From positions 1 to 45,902 of the IMG/VR virus record IMGVR_UViG_3300031787_000210: a DNA stretch of 45,902 bases; one strand, 5' to 3'. Under the pieces are notes generated by a model. It saw only the letters and a program-made list of their open reading frames with translations, was not told the origin of the DNA and searched no databases. Shown here piece after piece: positions 2,507 to 39,570 of this stretch (the stretch's first letter is position 1; each line of letters begins with the position of its first letter). The stretch is from a virus. Made by a program: the position numbers and the translations under genes.

Positions 2507-4189
2507 TTAAAGGCTATTCAAACCACTAACGTAAATCTTACCATAGAATTCAGGACGCAACATCTTCTTAGCGTAACGAGTCATCAAACCTTTACGTGGA
2601 GTGAAGGTATTTGGATCGTACACAAGAGGTGTCATAATCAACGGAATGTATGGAGCAAATACAGCACCTGATTCAAGGAACTGCTTACCACGGAAGCCCA
2701 TCAAGATAGTGTTCTCAGTCATATAAGGGTTCTTATAAACTGTGTAACGGTTATTGATCTGACCAGCTTTCATTACACCCATTGCGTATTCCATCTGAGA
2801 TGCATCACCATTAGAGTTAGCAGCGAATCCAGGGATTGATTCAAGGATTGTTGCTACTGTTGGAGAACATACTAAGAAGTTAGCGCCACCACGAAGAGTC
2901 AACTGGTGAATCTTGTTGCTAAGCTTTTGCATCTTAGTTCCAAGAGTTGCGAACCACTGACCTTGAGTGTTGAAGAATCCAGTTTGAGTAGTTGAAGATG
3001 GGAAGTCGAATCCATTAGTATTGTTAGGATTGTAAACACCATTGTTCAATACTGTCCAGTATTCAGTACCAGCAGCTGCGTCTTCAATCAACATATCAAG
3101 GATTTCGAGGTCAATTTCCATAGAAATGTACTCACTCATGATATTTGTCAATTCAGCTTCAGCATCAATGTTCTGGTAAGCGTTCAAATCTTGAGCAAAT
3201 TCAGGAGTCCAAACAGCTTTCAACTTTTTAGTTTTAGCTGTGATAGCCTGAGATTGCATTTTGATATTGATTTCTGGGATAACAATTGTGCTTGCACTTT
3301 CAGCGTTTGGAACTGAGTAAGAAGTAGCAGATGTATCTTCGAAGTCACCACGGTTGTTGTCAGTTGTAAGCTTATTGTATTCTACTACAAATGTTGAGTT
3401 AGCTACAACATTTGAAGAAGTTACATAGAATGTAATCTTAGCATTTGTGTAATCATAAGAAGTAAATGCTGGTAAGTTTGTAGCTACTGTGATTGAAGAA
3501 CCAGAGGTAATTACAAAACCACGAACTGCGTCTGGGTCAAAGTTTGCAGAAATAGATCCAGTAGGAATAGTAATTTTACAAATTCTACCTCCAGCAGCAG
3601 AAGCTGATAAATCAGAATCAAAATTTACATCAGCCCATGTAGCAGATGCAGATGCAAATCCAGAAACAGATGATGATATTGAAGAACTAAATTGGTTAGT
3701 AGAGTAAGTATAACGACCAGCTCCATATAAACCACCAGTTGTACCAGTTGTTTGGAATGGGAATTGACCAGTTGCATTACGGTTACCATAAAGTGAACCA
3801 CCACTAGTAAATGGATTCTTGTCAGTTCCATACTGGAAATCTAAGAAGAATACAAGACCAGAAGGCAAATTCATAGGCTGTACAGAAACGAACTCTTTAG
3901 CAGCGATCTGTCCAAATACCTTACGTACTAATGGAAGAGCGATACCAGCCCAGTTTTCTGATTGACCTACTGTGAAAGTACCTGCTGTTGGAGAAGCACC
4001 TGTTACACTAGATTCTACTACTAATTGTTTTGCTTGGTTTTCAAGTAAGATAGACATGTTGTTTTTTTCTACCTCACCTAAACCTTCAAGAAGGCCTGTT
4101 TTAGCCCACTTATTAGCTAATTTAGCCGCATCACTCTGAAGTGATTTCCACGGATTAGCTGATTCGAGTAATTGATTAATTGAACTCAT
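2507..4189 (-). CDS. gp23: Major capsid protein (T4 gp23-like)
   Basis: A 560-residue HK97-fold major capsid protein of the T4 type. T4 gp23-like stretches include KLKAVWTPEFAQDLNAYQNI, AEAELTNIMSEYISMEI and the C-terminal LMTRYAKKMLRPEFYGKIYV. The first ~59 residues look like the propeptide. VVE59/S60 (QLVVESSVTG) is the likely prohead-protease site, close to the Glu65 cut in T4 gp23. The extreme N-terminus (INQLLE9/S) also carries a hydrophobic-x-Glu site. A Ser/Thr-rich region at about residues 120-290 is larger than in T4 and may be an insertion domain exposed on the capsid surface. It lies 40 bases after the scaffold gene and is followed by a strong terminator. Confidence 0.95.
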   Translation of the reverse strand: MSSINQLLESANPWKSLQSDAAKLANKWAKTGLLEGLGEVEKNNMSILLENQAKQLVVESSVTGASPTAGTFTVGQSENWAGIALPLVRKVFGQIAAKEFVSVQPMNLPSGLVFFLDFQYGTDKNPFTSGGSLYGNRNATGQFPFQTTGTTGGLYGAGRYTYSTNQFSSSISSSVSGFASASATWADVNFDSDLSASAAGGRICKITIPTGSISANFDPDAVRGFVITSGSSITVATNLPAFTSYDYTNAKITFYVTSSNVVANSTFVVEYNKLTTDNNRGDFEDTSATSYSVPNAESASTIVIPEINIKMQSQAITAKTKKLKAVWTPEFAQDLNAYQNIDAEAELTNIMSEYISMEIDLEILDMLIEDAAAGTEYWTVLNNGVYNPNNTNGFDFPSSTTQTGFFNTQGQWFATLGTKMQKLSNKIHQLTLRGGANFLVCSPTVATILESIPGFAANSNGDASQMEYAMGVMKAGQINNRYTVYKNPYMTENTILMGFRGKQFLESGAVFAPYIPLIMTPLVYDPNTFTPRKGLMTRYAKKMLRPEFYGKIYVSGLNSL

Positions 4190-6960: not shown

Positions 6961-7781
6961 TAGTCTTTTTTATCTCTAAATAAAGTTATCATTTTGTCTA
7001 AATAGTCAACTGCTAAATCAGTACCATATTGAACATCAAAGTCAGGAGACTCTTTATAATGTTCCATAGTTTTTAATTTAGCTTGTTTTAATAAAGGCAA
7101 TAAAGTGTTTAATTTGTCTTCAATTTGATCAAATTCTCCAATCTTATTACCAATAAATTTCTTTAAGGATGGATCCTGTAAGTTTAATGAGTCAACATAT
7201 GCTTGATCTGTTTCTTCATTTTCCTTTAATTTTTTCTTCCATAAATCTTTATGATCAATTGCTTTTGATTGTTTATGGAGTTCTTCAGCAGGAACAGGTT
7301 TCCAACCTAACTTATAGTAGTAAATATTTTTAGCTCCTTTAGCTTTCTTATTTGGATTAAAAGCAAATGGAGTAGCATAATTTGCTCCAGTACCTGGAGT
7401 GAAATGTCCAGCTCCAGGACCTGCTCCAGTAGCACTCATTTCTCTTAATGCTTTTTGGATCAATTCACGAGCTTCTTCTTCACTTAATGTCTGTAGTTGT
7501 TTATATTTCTTAGGGTAATTGGTACGTAAATGAGATTTAAGTTGATTCCATAAATAATTAAAGCCATTAAATATTTCTTTAAATTTAGGATCCTTTTTAA
7601 TTTCATCTTCAACAATAAATGCCTTAAATTCTTTATGAAGATTTCTAAATAACTTATAAATTAAACCATAATTAGCCTTATAAGTAATATCCCATTCCAT
7701 TGATTTTGTCTCAGGATCAAACTCACCAGTGGGTTTAGATTCAAACCCTTTAATGTCGTCGTTATTAGTCTCTTCAGCCAT
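6960..7781 (-). CDS. Conserved head-cluster protein (273 aa), unknown function
   Basis: A charged, mostly helical protein with no recognisable catalytic motif. Visible features are an N-terminal acidic tail, a Gly-rich linker around residues 115-140 (ATGAGPGAGHFTPGTGANYA), and a C-terminal helical domain. Its start overlaps the end of the preceding gene (ATGGCTGA contains that gene's TGA) and its stop overlaps the next gene's ATG. It is therefore locked into the portal-protease operon. A prohead core or portal-associated role is likely from position only. Confidence 0.6.
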   Translation of the reverse strand: MAEETNNDDIKGFESKPTGEFDPETKSMEWDITYKANYGLIYKLFRNLHKEFKAFIVEDEIKKDPKFKEIFNGFNYLWNQLKSHLRTNYPKKYKQLQTLSEEEARELIQKALREMSATGAGPGAGHFTPGTGANYATPFAFNPNKKAKGAKNIYYYKLGWKPVPAEELHKQSKAIDHKDLWKKKLKENEETDQAYVDSLNLQDPSLKKFIGNKIGEFDQIEDKLNTLLPLLKQAKLKTMEHYKESPDFDVQYGTDLAVDYLDKMITLFRDKKD

Positions 7782-8631
7782 TAGCTAATTCTAGTTCTTC
7801 AAGTAAATCACAATATTGTAATAAGTTCACAACATGGTCATTATTAACCTTAGCACTTTTATCTAATTCAATTAATAAATTTAAAGTCTCATCAATTTTA
7901 ATCTTAGTGACTTGATTTTTTGTTTTCTTATTAAGTTTAGATAATTTAGTTTTAATCTCGTTTACTTTAGTATTATAAAATTCTTTTAATTTTACTGGAT
8001 TGTCAACAATATTAATGTATTCTTTTAAGATAATTTTTTTAGTATTACTAAAGTCAGAATATTTTTCGTTGAATTTCTCTAATAAAATTTTATATGCTAA
8101 AATACGAGTTTCTTTATCTTGTTTAGAAAGTTCTTCAAATACTTCTTCTTTTTTATTTTCTTTTTTAATTGTTGAAGAAGTTAAATGTTCAAGTAAAGAC
8201 AATTTGTTTTCAATGATTTGCTCATGAGATATTTTTTTATCGCTAGAATAAGCTTCAATTAATGTATAAATAGAAGCATGAGCTTTATAATTAGGAAGTT
8301 TAGTTTTGAAGAATTCTTCTAAATTATAGTATTTTTTAATCTCATTGATTAAGTTATACTTTTGTCTTTTAAGTGCAGAACGATTTAATTGTTTAGAACT
8401 TTCTAAAATAGTGTTAATGATTGTTTCTGCTTTACCTTCAGTTAGATTAGTACGCTTTAATAAACTATCATATAGTTTATATTCACGTCCTAATTCAGTT
8501 TTATTGAAGTAATTTTTTAGAATACCTGTGGCTTTTGATTCTTTGCCTGATAAAGTATCGGCTGTAATTTGACGAACTAAAAGTTCAAAAAGAATACCAG
8601 TATTCTTAAATTTCGAATGTTTAATTAACAT
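7774..8631 (-). CDS. Conserved T4-like head-cluster protein (285 aa)
   Basis: The N-terminus HSKFKNTGILFELLVRQITADTL is a pattern that I associate with a conserved protein next to the portal gene in marine T4-like phages; no function is established to my knowledge. The protein is Lys-rich and almost entirely helical, with coiled-coil-like stretches toward the C-terminus. It ends in TGA inside the first codons of the next gene, one of several clear uses of TGA as stop in this genome. A promoter-like motif precedes its start. Confidence 0.65.
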   Translation of the reverse strand: MLIKHSKFKNTGILFELLVRQITADTLSGKESKATGILKNYFNKTELGREYKLYDSLLKRTNLTEGKAETIINTILESSKQLNRSALKRQKYNLINEIKKYYNLEEFFKTKLPNYKAHASIYTLIEAYSSDKKISHEQIIENKLSLLEHLTSSTIKKENKKEEVFEELSKQDKETRILAYKILLEKFNEKYSDFSNTKKIILKEYINIVDNPVKLKEFYNTKVNEIKTKLSKLNKKTKNQVTKIKIDETLNLLIELDKSAKVNNDHVVNLLQYCDLLEELELANG

Positions 8632-8668: not shown

Positions 8669-10534
8669 TTAATCTCGCAATTGATTTTCATCAAGTAGTG
8701 ATTCTTTTGCTTTATCAGCGGAGAATACTATCTTTTTTTCCATTTCGTTTAACAGTTGTTTATTTTTCAAATAAACATTCTCAGTTAATTGTTTAGACAA
8801 ACCATCCATAGTATCATCATACTTATTAGCTGTTCTACCTAATCTATCTCTACCTAATGGGTTATCTTGAGTATTAATTGTAGATACTTTTTCTTTAGGA
8901 CGACCTAATGTAACATCATCTCCATATCCTGTAGGTACATTTTCTGGGTTAGAAGCCATTCTGCCTTTACCATATAATGTAGCTAAATCATGAGGTGTTC
9001 CATATGAACGTCCTGTTTCTAACGGGTCGTTTCCTTCTTCAGTAATTTGACCCAATCTGAACTTACGTTTGGCATCCTGTAAAATAAGATCACGGTACTC
9101 ATCATATTGGTCTTCACTGAAGTGGAATACATTGTGATAAATCCAATCTGTAGGTAAAAGTTGAGCTTCCATAATATTTTTAGCTAAATCAACTTTTTCC
9201 TTCATTAACATAATACGTTCTTGATCGTAAATGATAGAAGGTGTAGTTAAAGATAACTCAAAGTTAGTTAATGTTTCACCTTTATATCCTTGAACATATA
9301 AATGTACTAATGCGATTTTATAAAGTTCAGATAAAACAATACGTTGTAATCTATCAATTGTACGAGCAAAACGAATATCTTCTGCTGCTAATGTTGCTTT
9401 ACCTGTTAAATCTTTTTCATAACCCATAAATGCTTTAGGTACTTTAAGAGCGGCAAACAATTTATCTCTTAAATAAACTACGTCCTCCATACCATTGTAT
9501 TCTAATCCTTTAGTAGTTTCAATCTTAGTTGATTGATCATTACCTCGAACTGGAATATAAAAGTCTTCTAACAGGTTTTGCATGTTGTATTTTAAGTTAT
9601 ACTCACCTGTTTTTTCATCCATATATGGAGTCTTCTTCATTGTAGATATTGTTTTCTTCATGAAGTTTTCTACTTCATTAGGAGGAATAGCACCTACATT
9701 AATATAGAAAATACGTTTTTCTGGAGCGCGAGAAATTCTATGAATCAACATAGCATCTTCCATCAATGTATATTGTTTAAACAATTTACGAGCTGGTTCA
9801 ATGTATGAACGACCATATGGGAGATAATTTACATCAGTTAATAATCTGAAGTGTGCCATTTCGTAGTTGTCAAAATATATACCTGTTGAATCAGGACTGA
9901 ATTGATGAGGAACACTAAATTGACCATATCCTCCACCTACATATCCTTCAGGATTGAATTTAAATCTTACAGCAGTAGGTGTATTTTTATCAAATCCTTC
10001 TTGACGTTCTATATGATAAGCAGTATATGGAATAACATTATACACACCAAATTTTTCAGCGATCTCTAATTTTAAGAAGAAATCACCATATTTACACATT
10101 TGGCGAACCCAAGACCATAAATTAAATTCTATGTTTAAAACGTCATAAAATAGGTTATAAAGAATTTTCTGGATATCTTCATCCGAACTACGGATTTGAA
10201 GAACTTCACCCATTTCATTCTTTAAAGAACATTCATCAGATACAATGTCTAAAGCTGAGGCTATAATAGCATCAGTATCCATCACATCATAATCTGAATA
10301 TAATTGAGCTCTTAAATATTGGTAGTTAACATTTAATTGTTGACCGTAAAGTGATGTTGCGTTAGCTGAGTAGATTCTGTTATATCTGTCAACTAATGAA
10401 TTAGTCTCATATCTACCACTTCTTTGGATAGAATCTACATCCATTACTTTTAATTGATTACCTCCTTCATTACGAATAATTACGTCTGTTGAGAATAATC
10501 TTCTTAATCGTGTAAATACACTAGTATCTGCCAT
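8669..10534 (-). CDS. gp20: Portal vertex protein (T4 gp20-like)
   Basis: A 621-residue portal protein that would form the dodecameric ring through which DNA enters and leaves the capsid. T4 gp20-type stretches are visible: the clip/stem region IIASALDIVSDECSLKN, KYGDFFLKLEI, HRISRAPEKRIFYINVG, and FMGYEKDLTGKATLAAED with RFARTIDRLQRIVLSEL. It exceeds T4 gp20 by about 100 residues, mostly in a C-terminal extension (after about residue 500) that is polar and probably disordered or internal to the head. It lies 10 bases after the terminase gene in the usual terminase-portal order. Confidence 0.94.
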   Translation of the reverse strand: MADTSVFTRLRRLFSTDVIIRNEGGNQLKVMDVDSIQRSGRYETNSLVDRYNRIYSANATSLYGQQLNVNYQYLRAQLYSDYDVMDTDAIIASALDIVSDECSLKNEMGEVLQIRSSDEDIQKILYNLFYDVLNIEFNLWSWVRQMCKYGDFFLKLEIAEKFGVYNVIPYTAYHIERQEGFDKNTPTAVRFKFNPEGYVGGGYGQFSVPHQFSPDSTGIYFDNYEMAHFRLLTDVNYLPYGRSYIEPARKLFKQYTLMEDAMLIHRISRAPEKRIFYINVGAIPPNEVENFMKKTISTMKKTPYMDEKTGEYNLKYNMQNLLEDFYIPVRGNDQSTKIETTKGLEYNGMEDVVYLRDKLFAALKVPKAFMGYEKDLTGKATLAAEDIRFARTIDRLQRIVLSELYKIALVHLYVQGYKGETLTNFELSLTTPSIIYDQERIMLMKEKVDLAKNIMEAQLLPTDWIYHNVFHFSEDQYDEYRDLILQDAKRKFRLGQITEEGNDPLETGRSYGTPHDLATLYGKGRMASNPENVPTGYGDDVTLGRPKEKVSTINTQDNPLGRDRLGRTANKYDDTMDGLSKQLTENVYLKNKQLLNEMEKKIVFSADKAKESLLDENQLRD

Positions 10535-10544
10535 ATTTATTTAT

Positions 10545-12116
10545 TTAAAGTAACCAACTAATATCTTCAGCTCCGTTGCTTGTAGGCATATAATACGGAT
10601 TATCTTTGCCGGAGGCAAAGTAAGCTCCCTGATATTGAGAAGGTCTTGATATATTATTTAAAGTTGCTTTTGTTAATTCTATTCCTTGTTGTTTATTTTT
10701 TAAAGCTGTATCTCTTAAATACATTGCTGTACTAAAAGACATAACTAAGTCATCATTATATCCTGATTGTGCTTCTGCTCTACCATTTTTCCAAACAAAT
10801 ACTTTCATTTCTTCAATTAAACGTTTTGAGCGAACAGTAACACTACGATCACCTATATATTCTCTTCCTTTATTAATTACTAATGGGCGAGTTCTTAATG
10901 ACATAGTGAAACCAGGTACCATTTTTGAGTGATCTTCATATTGACTAAAATACGAATCTGAGATTGAGGCCTCACTCTTAGGTGAATAATATAAATTTCT
11001 ATATCCTCTTTCTTGGATTGCATCTAAAGCAGCCCAACCAATATTAGCATTTTCAACTACCAGCAATGCTTCATTATATTCCATTGCTATAGCAGTTAAG
11101 AAATAGCCAAATTCTTTTGGAGGCATATGTCCTTTATATTCTGCTACTTGTGTATTAGTTTCTAAATCAAATATATGGAATGCTGAGTAGTCTTTACTAT
11201 CACCTCGAGCAACGTCAGCTACAACCATATAATTTCTTGTATAGTCAGGTGATTCCCAAATCCAAAGATTTTTATCAACACCTCTTCTATCCATAGGATC
11301 AATAGCTGTAGATGTTAACATATATTCTATATGTTCAGGAAAATATACTACATCACCTGATGTACTAAAATCACAGTCACATTCTTGAGCTGCTAATCTA
11401 GGGTCACCTAATAATTCATCTTGTTTTTTTCTCCAAGCCTCATCTCGTTCTGGGTGAACAAACCAAGGTAATTTAATTGGTAAAAATTGATTTTCTTGTG
11501 CTTCTGCTTTAACCCATGTTTGATGGAACCAGTTACCAGTACCATATGGAGTTGATAATACAATTGCACCACCACCAGTAGCTAAGGTTTGTTGAGCTGA
11601 AGCCCATATTTCACCAATTTGTTCAATAAATGCAGCCTCATCTATTAATAGAAGTGAAACAGCTTCTGATCAACCTGAATCACCTGCTGCTGAGACTGCT
11701 TTAATTTGTGAACCATTTGGTAATTTAAGAGAAAGTTTATTGTCTTCTAAAGGTTTAGGTCCTTTAAGCCATGAAGGTAAGTTATCAAACATGAACTTTA
11801 CCTTAGTAACCATGTTTTTAGCTGTATCAGTTTTAGTTGCTAAACAAAGAACATTTTTATCTTTATGAAACAACATCAACCATAAAGAATAACCGGCGGC
11901 TAAAGTTGAAATACCTAACTGTCTAGATTTAAGTACAATTGAATATGGATTATCTTTCCATAAATTTAATACTTTACCTTGAAATGGATATAAATTAAAT
12001 ATAACTCGCCCACGAACTGGGTTTTGAATGTAACAGTATTTTTTCATGAAGTGTGCTGGGTCTTGAGCACACTTGATGTATTCTTCTCTTATTATTTGTT
12101 TTAAGTCTTGCGACAT
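10545..12116 (-). CDS. gp17: Terminase large subunit (T4 gp17-like), interrupted by one in-frame TGA
   Basis: This is the DNA-packaging motor. The frame is continuous from the ATG at 12116 to the stop at 10545 (523 codons) except for TGA at codon 149 (11670-11672). The ATPase half has Walker A SRQLGIST (64-71), Walker B LLLIDEAAF beginning about six codons after the TGA, and coupling motif STPYGTGNWF. The nuclease half has VADVARGDSKDYSAF and LVVENANIGW. Relatives usually read GRSE where this reads G-stop-SE, so CGA-to-TGA is the simplest origin. As written, the product would lose Walker B and the whole nuclease. Two ordinary open frames, 11670-12116 and 10545-11321, would be called separately. 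Confidence 0.9.
11670..11672 (-). other. In-frame TGA inside the terminase gene
   Basis: Codon 149 reads TGA. Both flanks translate to conserved terminase sequence (AVSAAGDSG before, SEAVSLLLIDEAAF after). No bases are inserted, so an intron or intein is excluded at this site. TGA acts as a normal stop elsewhere in the window (7774, 26844, 36506, 38159). Confidence 0.95.
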
Positions 12117-20610: not shown

Positions 20611-21068
20611 TCAGGTTGATTATTTAATTTGTTATAATTTAATTTTTTTACACCTAACTTATCTAATATATAAAAATTTCTATATGAGGCCAAAGTATTA
20701 GTTCCTTTAAACTCATCAGGCATACATTGTGGAGGAGCAACAAATCCATTATCTGGGAGATTGGGTTCATTTTGCTCTAACCATTCTAGTACTTCTTTTG
20801 TTTTATGAGGTTTACCATAACGTTTTTTAAATTCCTCACATATTTCAAGACCATGTTTAACTAACCATCTATAATGTTGTATAGATGCTCTAGTCCATTT
20901 AGTTGATGGATGATTTTTATGAGCACGTTTGTATGGAGCTGTTCCACCTGCTTCCCAATGTGCAGTACAACACATTTGAGCACTTTCAATTTGCATTTTA
21001 CGAATGTGATCGTCTGCCAATTCACGTGCTGCGATGATTGGGTCTTCATTAATATAAAATATATTCAT
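20595..21068 (-). CDS. Conserved phage protein, possibly pyrimidine-dimer glycosylase-like (157 aa)
   Basis: The pattern NIFYINEDPIIAARELADDHI, KMQIESAQMCCTAHW, HKNHPSTKWTRASIQHYRWL, RYGKPHKT and QCMPDEFKGTNTLASYRNFY marks a family common in cyanophages and other large phages. Some members are annotated as related to T4 endonuclease V (DenV), partly because of the ELAD.H helix, but I do not see the full DenV catalytic layout, so I hold the function open. It is coupled to the FAD oxidoreductase by an overlap. It may be a DNA repair enzyme or an unknown phage enzyme. Confidence 0.6.
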   Translation of the reverse strand: MNIFYINEDPIIAARELADDHIRKMQIESAQMCCTAHWEAGGTAPYKRAHKNHPSTKWTRASIQHYRWLVKHGLEICEEFKKRYGKPHKTKEVLEWLEQNEPNLPDNGFVAPPQCMPDEFKGTNTLASYRNFYILDKLGVKKLNYNKLNNQPEWTKR

Positions 21069-21111
21069 ACAATCAAATATAACTTATATTTTTTAGTAAG
21101 CCAAAATAAAG

Positions 21112-28964: not shown

Positions 28965-29591
28965 TTATACATATTGTGCTCTATATTGTTTATTTTTAAT
29001 AGTTTGAGCCTTTCCAATAAGCTGACATCTTACTGTTTCTGGGTTGATTTGTAAGTCAAGAGCTAAATCATGGTAACTAGGGTATGTTTTAACATATTCA
29101 CCTGATGTTTTATATAAAGCTACAGGGTTGCCTTTTCCTTTATTAGGGCTTACTCTACCCTTATGAGCTTTAGATACATTAGGTTTAGGACCATCAGGTT
29201 TACCTTTTTTAGATGTTGTTGAACCTGTTTTGGCTTTAGATATTTTTTCGCAAGTTTCTTTTGAGAATTTACGTCCTGTTAGTTTTTCACTAACTGTCTT
29301 TTTAGTTTCTTCTTTATGAAGATTATTTCCTCTAGCATCATTAGTCATATTATAAAACATTGAATTTCCAGCTGCGTTAAATTTTGTCAAATAATATGTT
29401 TCCATAACTCGAGCATCTCCCTCACCTTCCCATAATATTTCTCTAGTGAAATTTTCTTTACCATGTTTTTTTAAAGCATTTTTTAATGCTTTTCCACTAC
29501 CATAATAGTTTTCATCAACTTGAGTCTTTCTAGAAGATCCAATATATTTTTTATTGTTGATGACATTAGTTATAAGATAAACATAAGCCAT
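28965..29591 (-). CDS. GIY-YIG homing-type endonuclease with NUMOD3-like repeats (208 aa)
   Basis: The N-terminal nuclease domain has VYLITNVINNKKYIGSS (the GIY-YIG motif in variant form VYL...YIG), an Arg in the REILWEG segment, and a Glu in METYYLTKF. NUMOD3-like basic repeats (KKTVSEKLTGRKFSKETCEK, SKAHKGRVSPNKGKG) and a DNA-binding C-terminal helix-turn-helix (LALDLQINPETVRCQLIG) follow. This is the plan of free-standing SegB-type homing endonucleases, so it is probably a selfish mobile gene. It has a strong Shine-Dalgarno (TTGGAGGGAAT before ATG), unlike its neighbours. No intron is visible next to it. Confidence 0.85.
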   Translation of the reverse strand: MAYVYLITNVINNKKYIGSSRKTQVDENYYGSGKALKNALKKHGKENFTREILWEGEGDARVMETYYLTKFNAAGNSMFYNMTNDARGNNLHKEETKKTVSEKLTGRKFSKETCEKISKAKTGSTTSKKGKPDGPKPNVSKAHKGRVSPNKGKGNPVALYKTSGEYVKTYPSYHDLALDLQINPETVRCQLIGKAQTIKNKQYRAQYV

Positions 29592-39129: not shown

Positions 39130-39570
39130 TTAGACCTCAAAATCCTTTCTATAAAACTTACCTAACAAGTTATCATTATAGCAATTTACTTGCAACACAT
39201 CATGCTTACACTGTAGTGCTAGTTCCCAATATGTTAAAAGTTTTTTATTAGGACATATAACTAATATTTCTCGTTGGAATTTATCTAAACCTAAATTTTT
39301 TATATCTTCTAATAAGAACTTATTACTACCCCAATATTCTTTCCAATTAGATTCTTTAGTAACTAATTTTTTAGTAGGTTTTTTGCCTCGCTGGGTTGGT
39401 AAGGCTGCTAATTCTTTTTTACCTAGTTTAATATTTGTTTGAGATATAAGTTGTTTTTTACCAATATAAAACTTTCCAGTTTCGTTGTTAGTAATTTTGT
39501 AAATAAAACCAAATGTATTTTCAGGGAAATCTTCTATCTTTTCTATAACTTTATTTTCGTATAACCACAT
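39130..39570 (-). CDS. GIY-YIG-like protein (146 aa)
   Basis: The pattern FGFIYKITNNETGKFYIGKK carries IY and YIG as in the GIY-YIG nuclease core. It belongs to a family common in T4-like phages that begins with WLYENKVIE-like and ends in a small helical part. It has no NUMOD repeats, so it is probably a phage-encoded nuclease and not a homing enzyme. It starts within the upstream stop codon (one-base overlap). The stop lies in an imperfect stem (AGGTCTA/TAGGCCT), a possible weak terminator. Confidence 0.7.
   Translation of the reverse strand: MWLYENKVIEKIEDFPENTFGFIYKITNNETGKFYIGKKQLISQTNIKLGKKELAALPTQRGKKPTKKLVTKESNWKEYWGSNKFLLEDIKNLGLDKFQREILVICPNKKLLTYWELALQCKHDVLQVNCYNDNLLGKFYRKDFEV

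Follow-up and report, generated by a model that had tools for sequence, protein, structure and literature searches.

The large terminase (TerL) gene of a T4-like phage record carries an in-frame TGA at codon 149 that is private to this record and does not characterize the phage lineage, since it is absent from a near-twin record, from a further close relative and from the other relatives. We consider it likely that a private C-to-T artefact produced this stop; it would have been introduced by sequencing, library damage or consensus calling at low depth, and the phage lineage would encode an ordinary full-length T4-like TerL with Arg at codon 149, read in the standard code.

The window, i.e., the whole stretch of DNA analyzed, is an IMG/VR virus record of 45,902 bases with 31% G+C, in which the minus strand carries nearly all genes. 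It spans a T4-like head-gene block, with genes for the large terminase, the portal protein and the major head protein among others, and is only part of the phage genome, related genomes being 160–172 kb long. The TerL frame (10545..12116, minus strand) runs from an ATG at 12116 to a TAA at 10545 and comprises 523 residues with the TGA read through. The portal protein gene (8669..10534, minus strand) and the major head protein gene (2507..4189, minus strand) are unbroken, in line with the first-pass annotation, which had described the surrounding head genes as intact. Two SegE-like GIY-YIG endonuclease genes, also on the minus strand (28965..29591 and 39130..39570), probably represent free-standing homing endonucleases.

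Codon 149 (11672..11670, minus strand) reads TGA in frame, shortly before Walker B as originally noted; residue 149, shown as X in the read-through context GDSG-X-SEAVSLLLIDEAAF, stands eleven residues ahead of the Glu of the Walker B DE pair. The 148 residues preceding the TGA (11673..12116, minus strand), the sole product if it terminates translation, contain Walker A (SRQLGIST) and match Terminase_6N and terminase PHROGs. The 374 residues downstream (10545..11669, minus strand) hold Walker B and the nuclease domain and likewise match terminase PHROGs. Read through, the gene thus shows Walker A, Walker B and the C-terminal nuclease in one conserved frame, broken in the window record by the TGA; the near-twin has all of this as it stands, supported by PHROG, Pfam and T4 gp17 matches. 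Related loci yielded 175 alignments, near end to end and at 68–99.8% identity, without a single stop, and 195 alignments of relatives’ proteins to the window span the TGA. Conservation of the frame on both sides, as had been claimed for this single TGA, is therefore not due to chance. Neither an intron nor an intein was found at the TGA site, where the frame is continuous and the relatives have no insertion.

An exact-pattern scan with the first base of codon 149 left free matched twelve viral records. The near-twin, L084 (IMGVR_UViG_3300032116_002957, 12,729 bases), represents nearly the same genome as the window: over window positions 20.99–8.38 kb (about 12.6 kb, which leaves aside the first ~90 bases of L084), the two differ by three substitutions, all of them C/T on the coding strand. 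One of these is codon 149, which is CGA (Arg) in L084 and TGA in the window; of the remaining two, one is silent and the other exchanges Thr (window) for Ile (L084). A further relative (L085), 97–98% identical to the window, also has CGA at this codon. Every distinct related terminase covering the site encodes Arg (145 of 145, with no stop), by way of CGA in 81, CGT in 33, AGA in 30 and CGC in 1, as do six extra relatives from a second scan with a different pattern; records very near the window’s own may fall outside these searches, and more near-twins, with either base, may exist. The expectation that the relatives usually have Arg was thus understated, and the proposed single transition from CGA to TGA is seen directly in the near-twin. 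Positions 12..94 of L084 diverge abruptly from window positions 21012..21095, such as a strain breakpoint or an artefact at the end of a contig would produce.

By terminase, the nearest cultured phages are the Flavobacterium phages vB_FspM_immuto (Immutovirus), whose full-length TerL shares about 60% identity with that of the window and which have a matching gene order (terminase, gp20, prohead protease, gp23). A nucleotide search of cultured phages returned no match. The immuto TerL and T4 gp17 are homologous to the window TerL over the full length and have Arg at the matching position; unlike them, and unlike the near-twin, the window record alone has a TGA in place of the Arg codon.

The record appears sound in other respects. 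At least two relatives cover about 24.6 kb of the window when their proteins are aligned, with some 21 kb beyond comparison; within the covered part, the TGA at codon 149 is the only sense-strand break of a conserved frame, and no frameshifts were found in conserved frames. The other stops that appear in the relatives’ alignments lie, in our reading, ahead of start codons, where genes naturally end, or on the antisense strand. With no other broken conserved frame in this portion, the phage is not in a state of decay.

Sporadic in-frame stops are found in about 1% of hallmark genes in related IMG/VR records. Among distinct relatives from the same database covering at least half the gene, a best-scoring and hence non-random sample, such stops occurred in 2 of 165 terminases, 1 of 166 portals and 2 of 85 major capsid genes (one capsid case lying at a contig edge and the other in a poorly aligned stretch), all at sites other than codon 149. 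This frequency is the background of the collection, so that one stop can be expected fairly often in a record of 46 kb carrying dozens of genes. Like the window stop, those of L101, L149 and L047 are isolated and private, in a frame otherwise conserved; they differ from it in being TAA at other sites, whereas the window has TGA derived from CGA. The stops of L101/L192, L149, L082 and L047 are all TAA at unrelated sites, and several are apparently one C-to-A change away from the consensus codon, a pattern that might reflect oxidative library damage. In L082 (contig 3300020045_017904, 93.7 kb), the terminase TAA falls within Walker A, and an interruption of about 1.1 kb follows near residue 255, possibly marking an inserted element or a decayed gene. 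The portal genes of L162, L064 and L059 (contigs 3300042565_002664 and 3300034062_005719) contain about 1.07 kb of extra DNA at around residue 250, splitting the gene as an intron or intein would.

The artefact has to be weighed against a real nonsense mutation, carried by dead-end mutants or by defective genomes packaged by an intact co-infecting phage, which we regard as possible but distinctly less probable. Molecules with this mutation would make only the first 148 residues of TerL and could not package DNA by themselves. A single transition turns the CGA of the near-twin into this codon, intact copies are evidently in circulation, as L084 and L085 indicate, and the chance that three transitions between two copies create at least one stop is about 5%, or about 17% if the changes are G:C-to-A:T. 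Moreover, the two remaining differences from L084 resemble ordinary polymorphism, so that the record shows no visible excess of errors, and a private real mutation would have the same appearance in the sequence alone, all of which speaks against an artefact. However, a lethal allele is expected to be rare in a lytic phage population, and the record is a consensus. We prefer the artefact because such an allele should not dominate the molecules behind a consensus, and infer that the T is an error and does not come from a real mutant molecule. Damage-type changes are most commonly C-to-T.

A strong hairpin is predicted to start at the TGA (11590..11675, minus strand; z about −4); its counterpart in the near-twin is weaker (z about −2.7), and most relatives lack it (mean z about −1). 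As it is not a conserved element, this RNA hairpin was rejected as a signal for recoding. In the window, the T of the TGA adds a pairing with the opposite hairpin arm that does not form with CGA in the near-twin. A template-switch mutation or copying artefact is thereby hinted at, but this is a single coincidence with a prior of about one in three.

At the position of the residue lost to the stop, Arg is invariant in a profile of 18 terminases that starts with the near-twin and extends as far as Rhodothermus phage RM378 and cyanophage P-SSM4, and the position aligns with Arg in T4 gp17 and in P74-26 TerL (structure 4ZNI). The otherwise matching chain of 4ZNJ has Ala where 4ZNI has Arg. Because of the alignment and this difference between the two structures, residue 149 would correspond to the P74-26 arginine finger R139, whose position is thus occupied by Arg across the lineage (the same 145 of 145 relatives). 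The Arg at the matching place in T4 has been pointed out, without a test there (PMC5727402). An arginine-finger role may accordingly extend to T4-like terminases, in which case read-through inserting Trp or Cys would probably restore the length of the protein and not the function of the motor.

This consideration disfavors suppression, i.e., a real TGA decoded by an opal suppressor tRNA of the phage or host, or by natural read-through, to yield full-length TerL, which we judge highly improbable. In its favor, some phages are known to have suppressor tRNAs (PMC11210395), the frame downstream of the TGA is open and conserved, and the window is only part of the genome; against it, the near-twin has an Arg codon, the position aligns with the P74-26 arginine finger, where inserted Trp or Cys should not restore the motor, and the hairpin after the TGA is unconserved. 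The first-pass annotation had suggested looking for a phage-encoded suppressor tRNA elsewhere in the genome; no tRNA with a TCA anticodon was found in the window, nor among three long relatives in their tRNA regions, an answer that holds for the parts covered. ARAGORN reported a 98-base tRNA-Glu inside the portal gene (9673..9770, minus strand), treated as false because it has no Rfam support. Selenocysteine insertion at the TGA is unsupported, the relatives having Arg and not Cys at this position.

Stop-reassigned or suppressor-tRNA phages (crAss-like, table 4 or 15) likewise show an in-frame stop in a late structural gene. The window differs from those phages in having a single site, at which the residue is Arg rather than Trp or Gln; TGA continues to terminate genes in it, and the near-twin is stop-free (PMC11210395). 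Reassignment of TGA to a sense codon throughout the phage would fit the one in-frame TGA within a conserved gene, yet it has almost no chance of being correct: TGA terminates seven other genes of the window, which refutes a general reassignment, there is no second in-frame TGA among comparable conserved frames, and the known reassignment of TGA in phages is to Trp, not Arg (PMC11210395). The ends of these seven genes are conserved where relatives permit a test, although several could be compared with only a few relatives; the stop of the gene at 7774..8631 is shared in position by 183 relatives, as TAA in 154 of them and as TGA in 29. The genetic code of the phage is the standard one, and the earlier view that genome-wide TGA recoding is unlikely is borne out.

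Equally far-fetched is the production of TerL as two pieces by a restart after the stop. An in-frame ATG does occur at 11321, but it is codon 266, past Walker B, so the ATPase core would be lost; it has no clear Shine–Dalgarno sequence upstream, its Met is unconserved in the relatives, and the near-twin has one whole terminase gene.

Together, the options first raised for this stop, namely an error, a defective or mixed population, or nonsense suppression, still stand, with the stop now private to one record and suppression unlikely. We attach very little probability, less even than to suppression in general, to the idea that the TGA is real in some genomes and that an Arg-inserting opal suppressor tRNA of the phage or host provides active TerL. 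A real TGA translated as Arg would amount to a new kind of packaging-motor control, for which there is no support here. The case is mainly a caution that a lone in-frame stop in a metagenomic hallmark gene should be compared with near-identical records before recoding or suppression is proposed.
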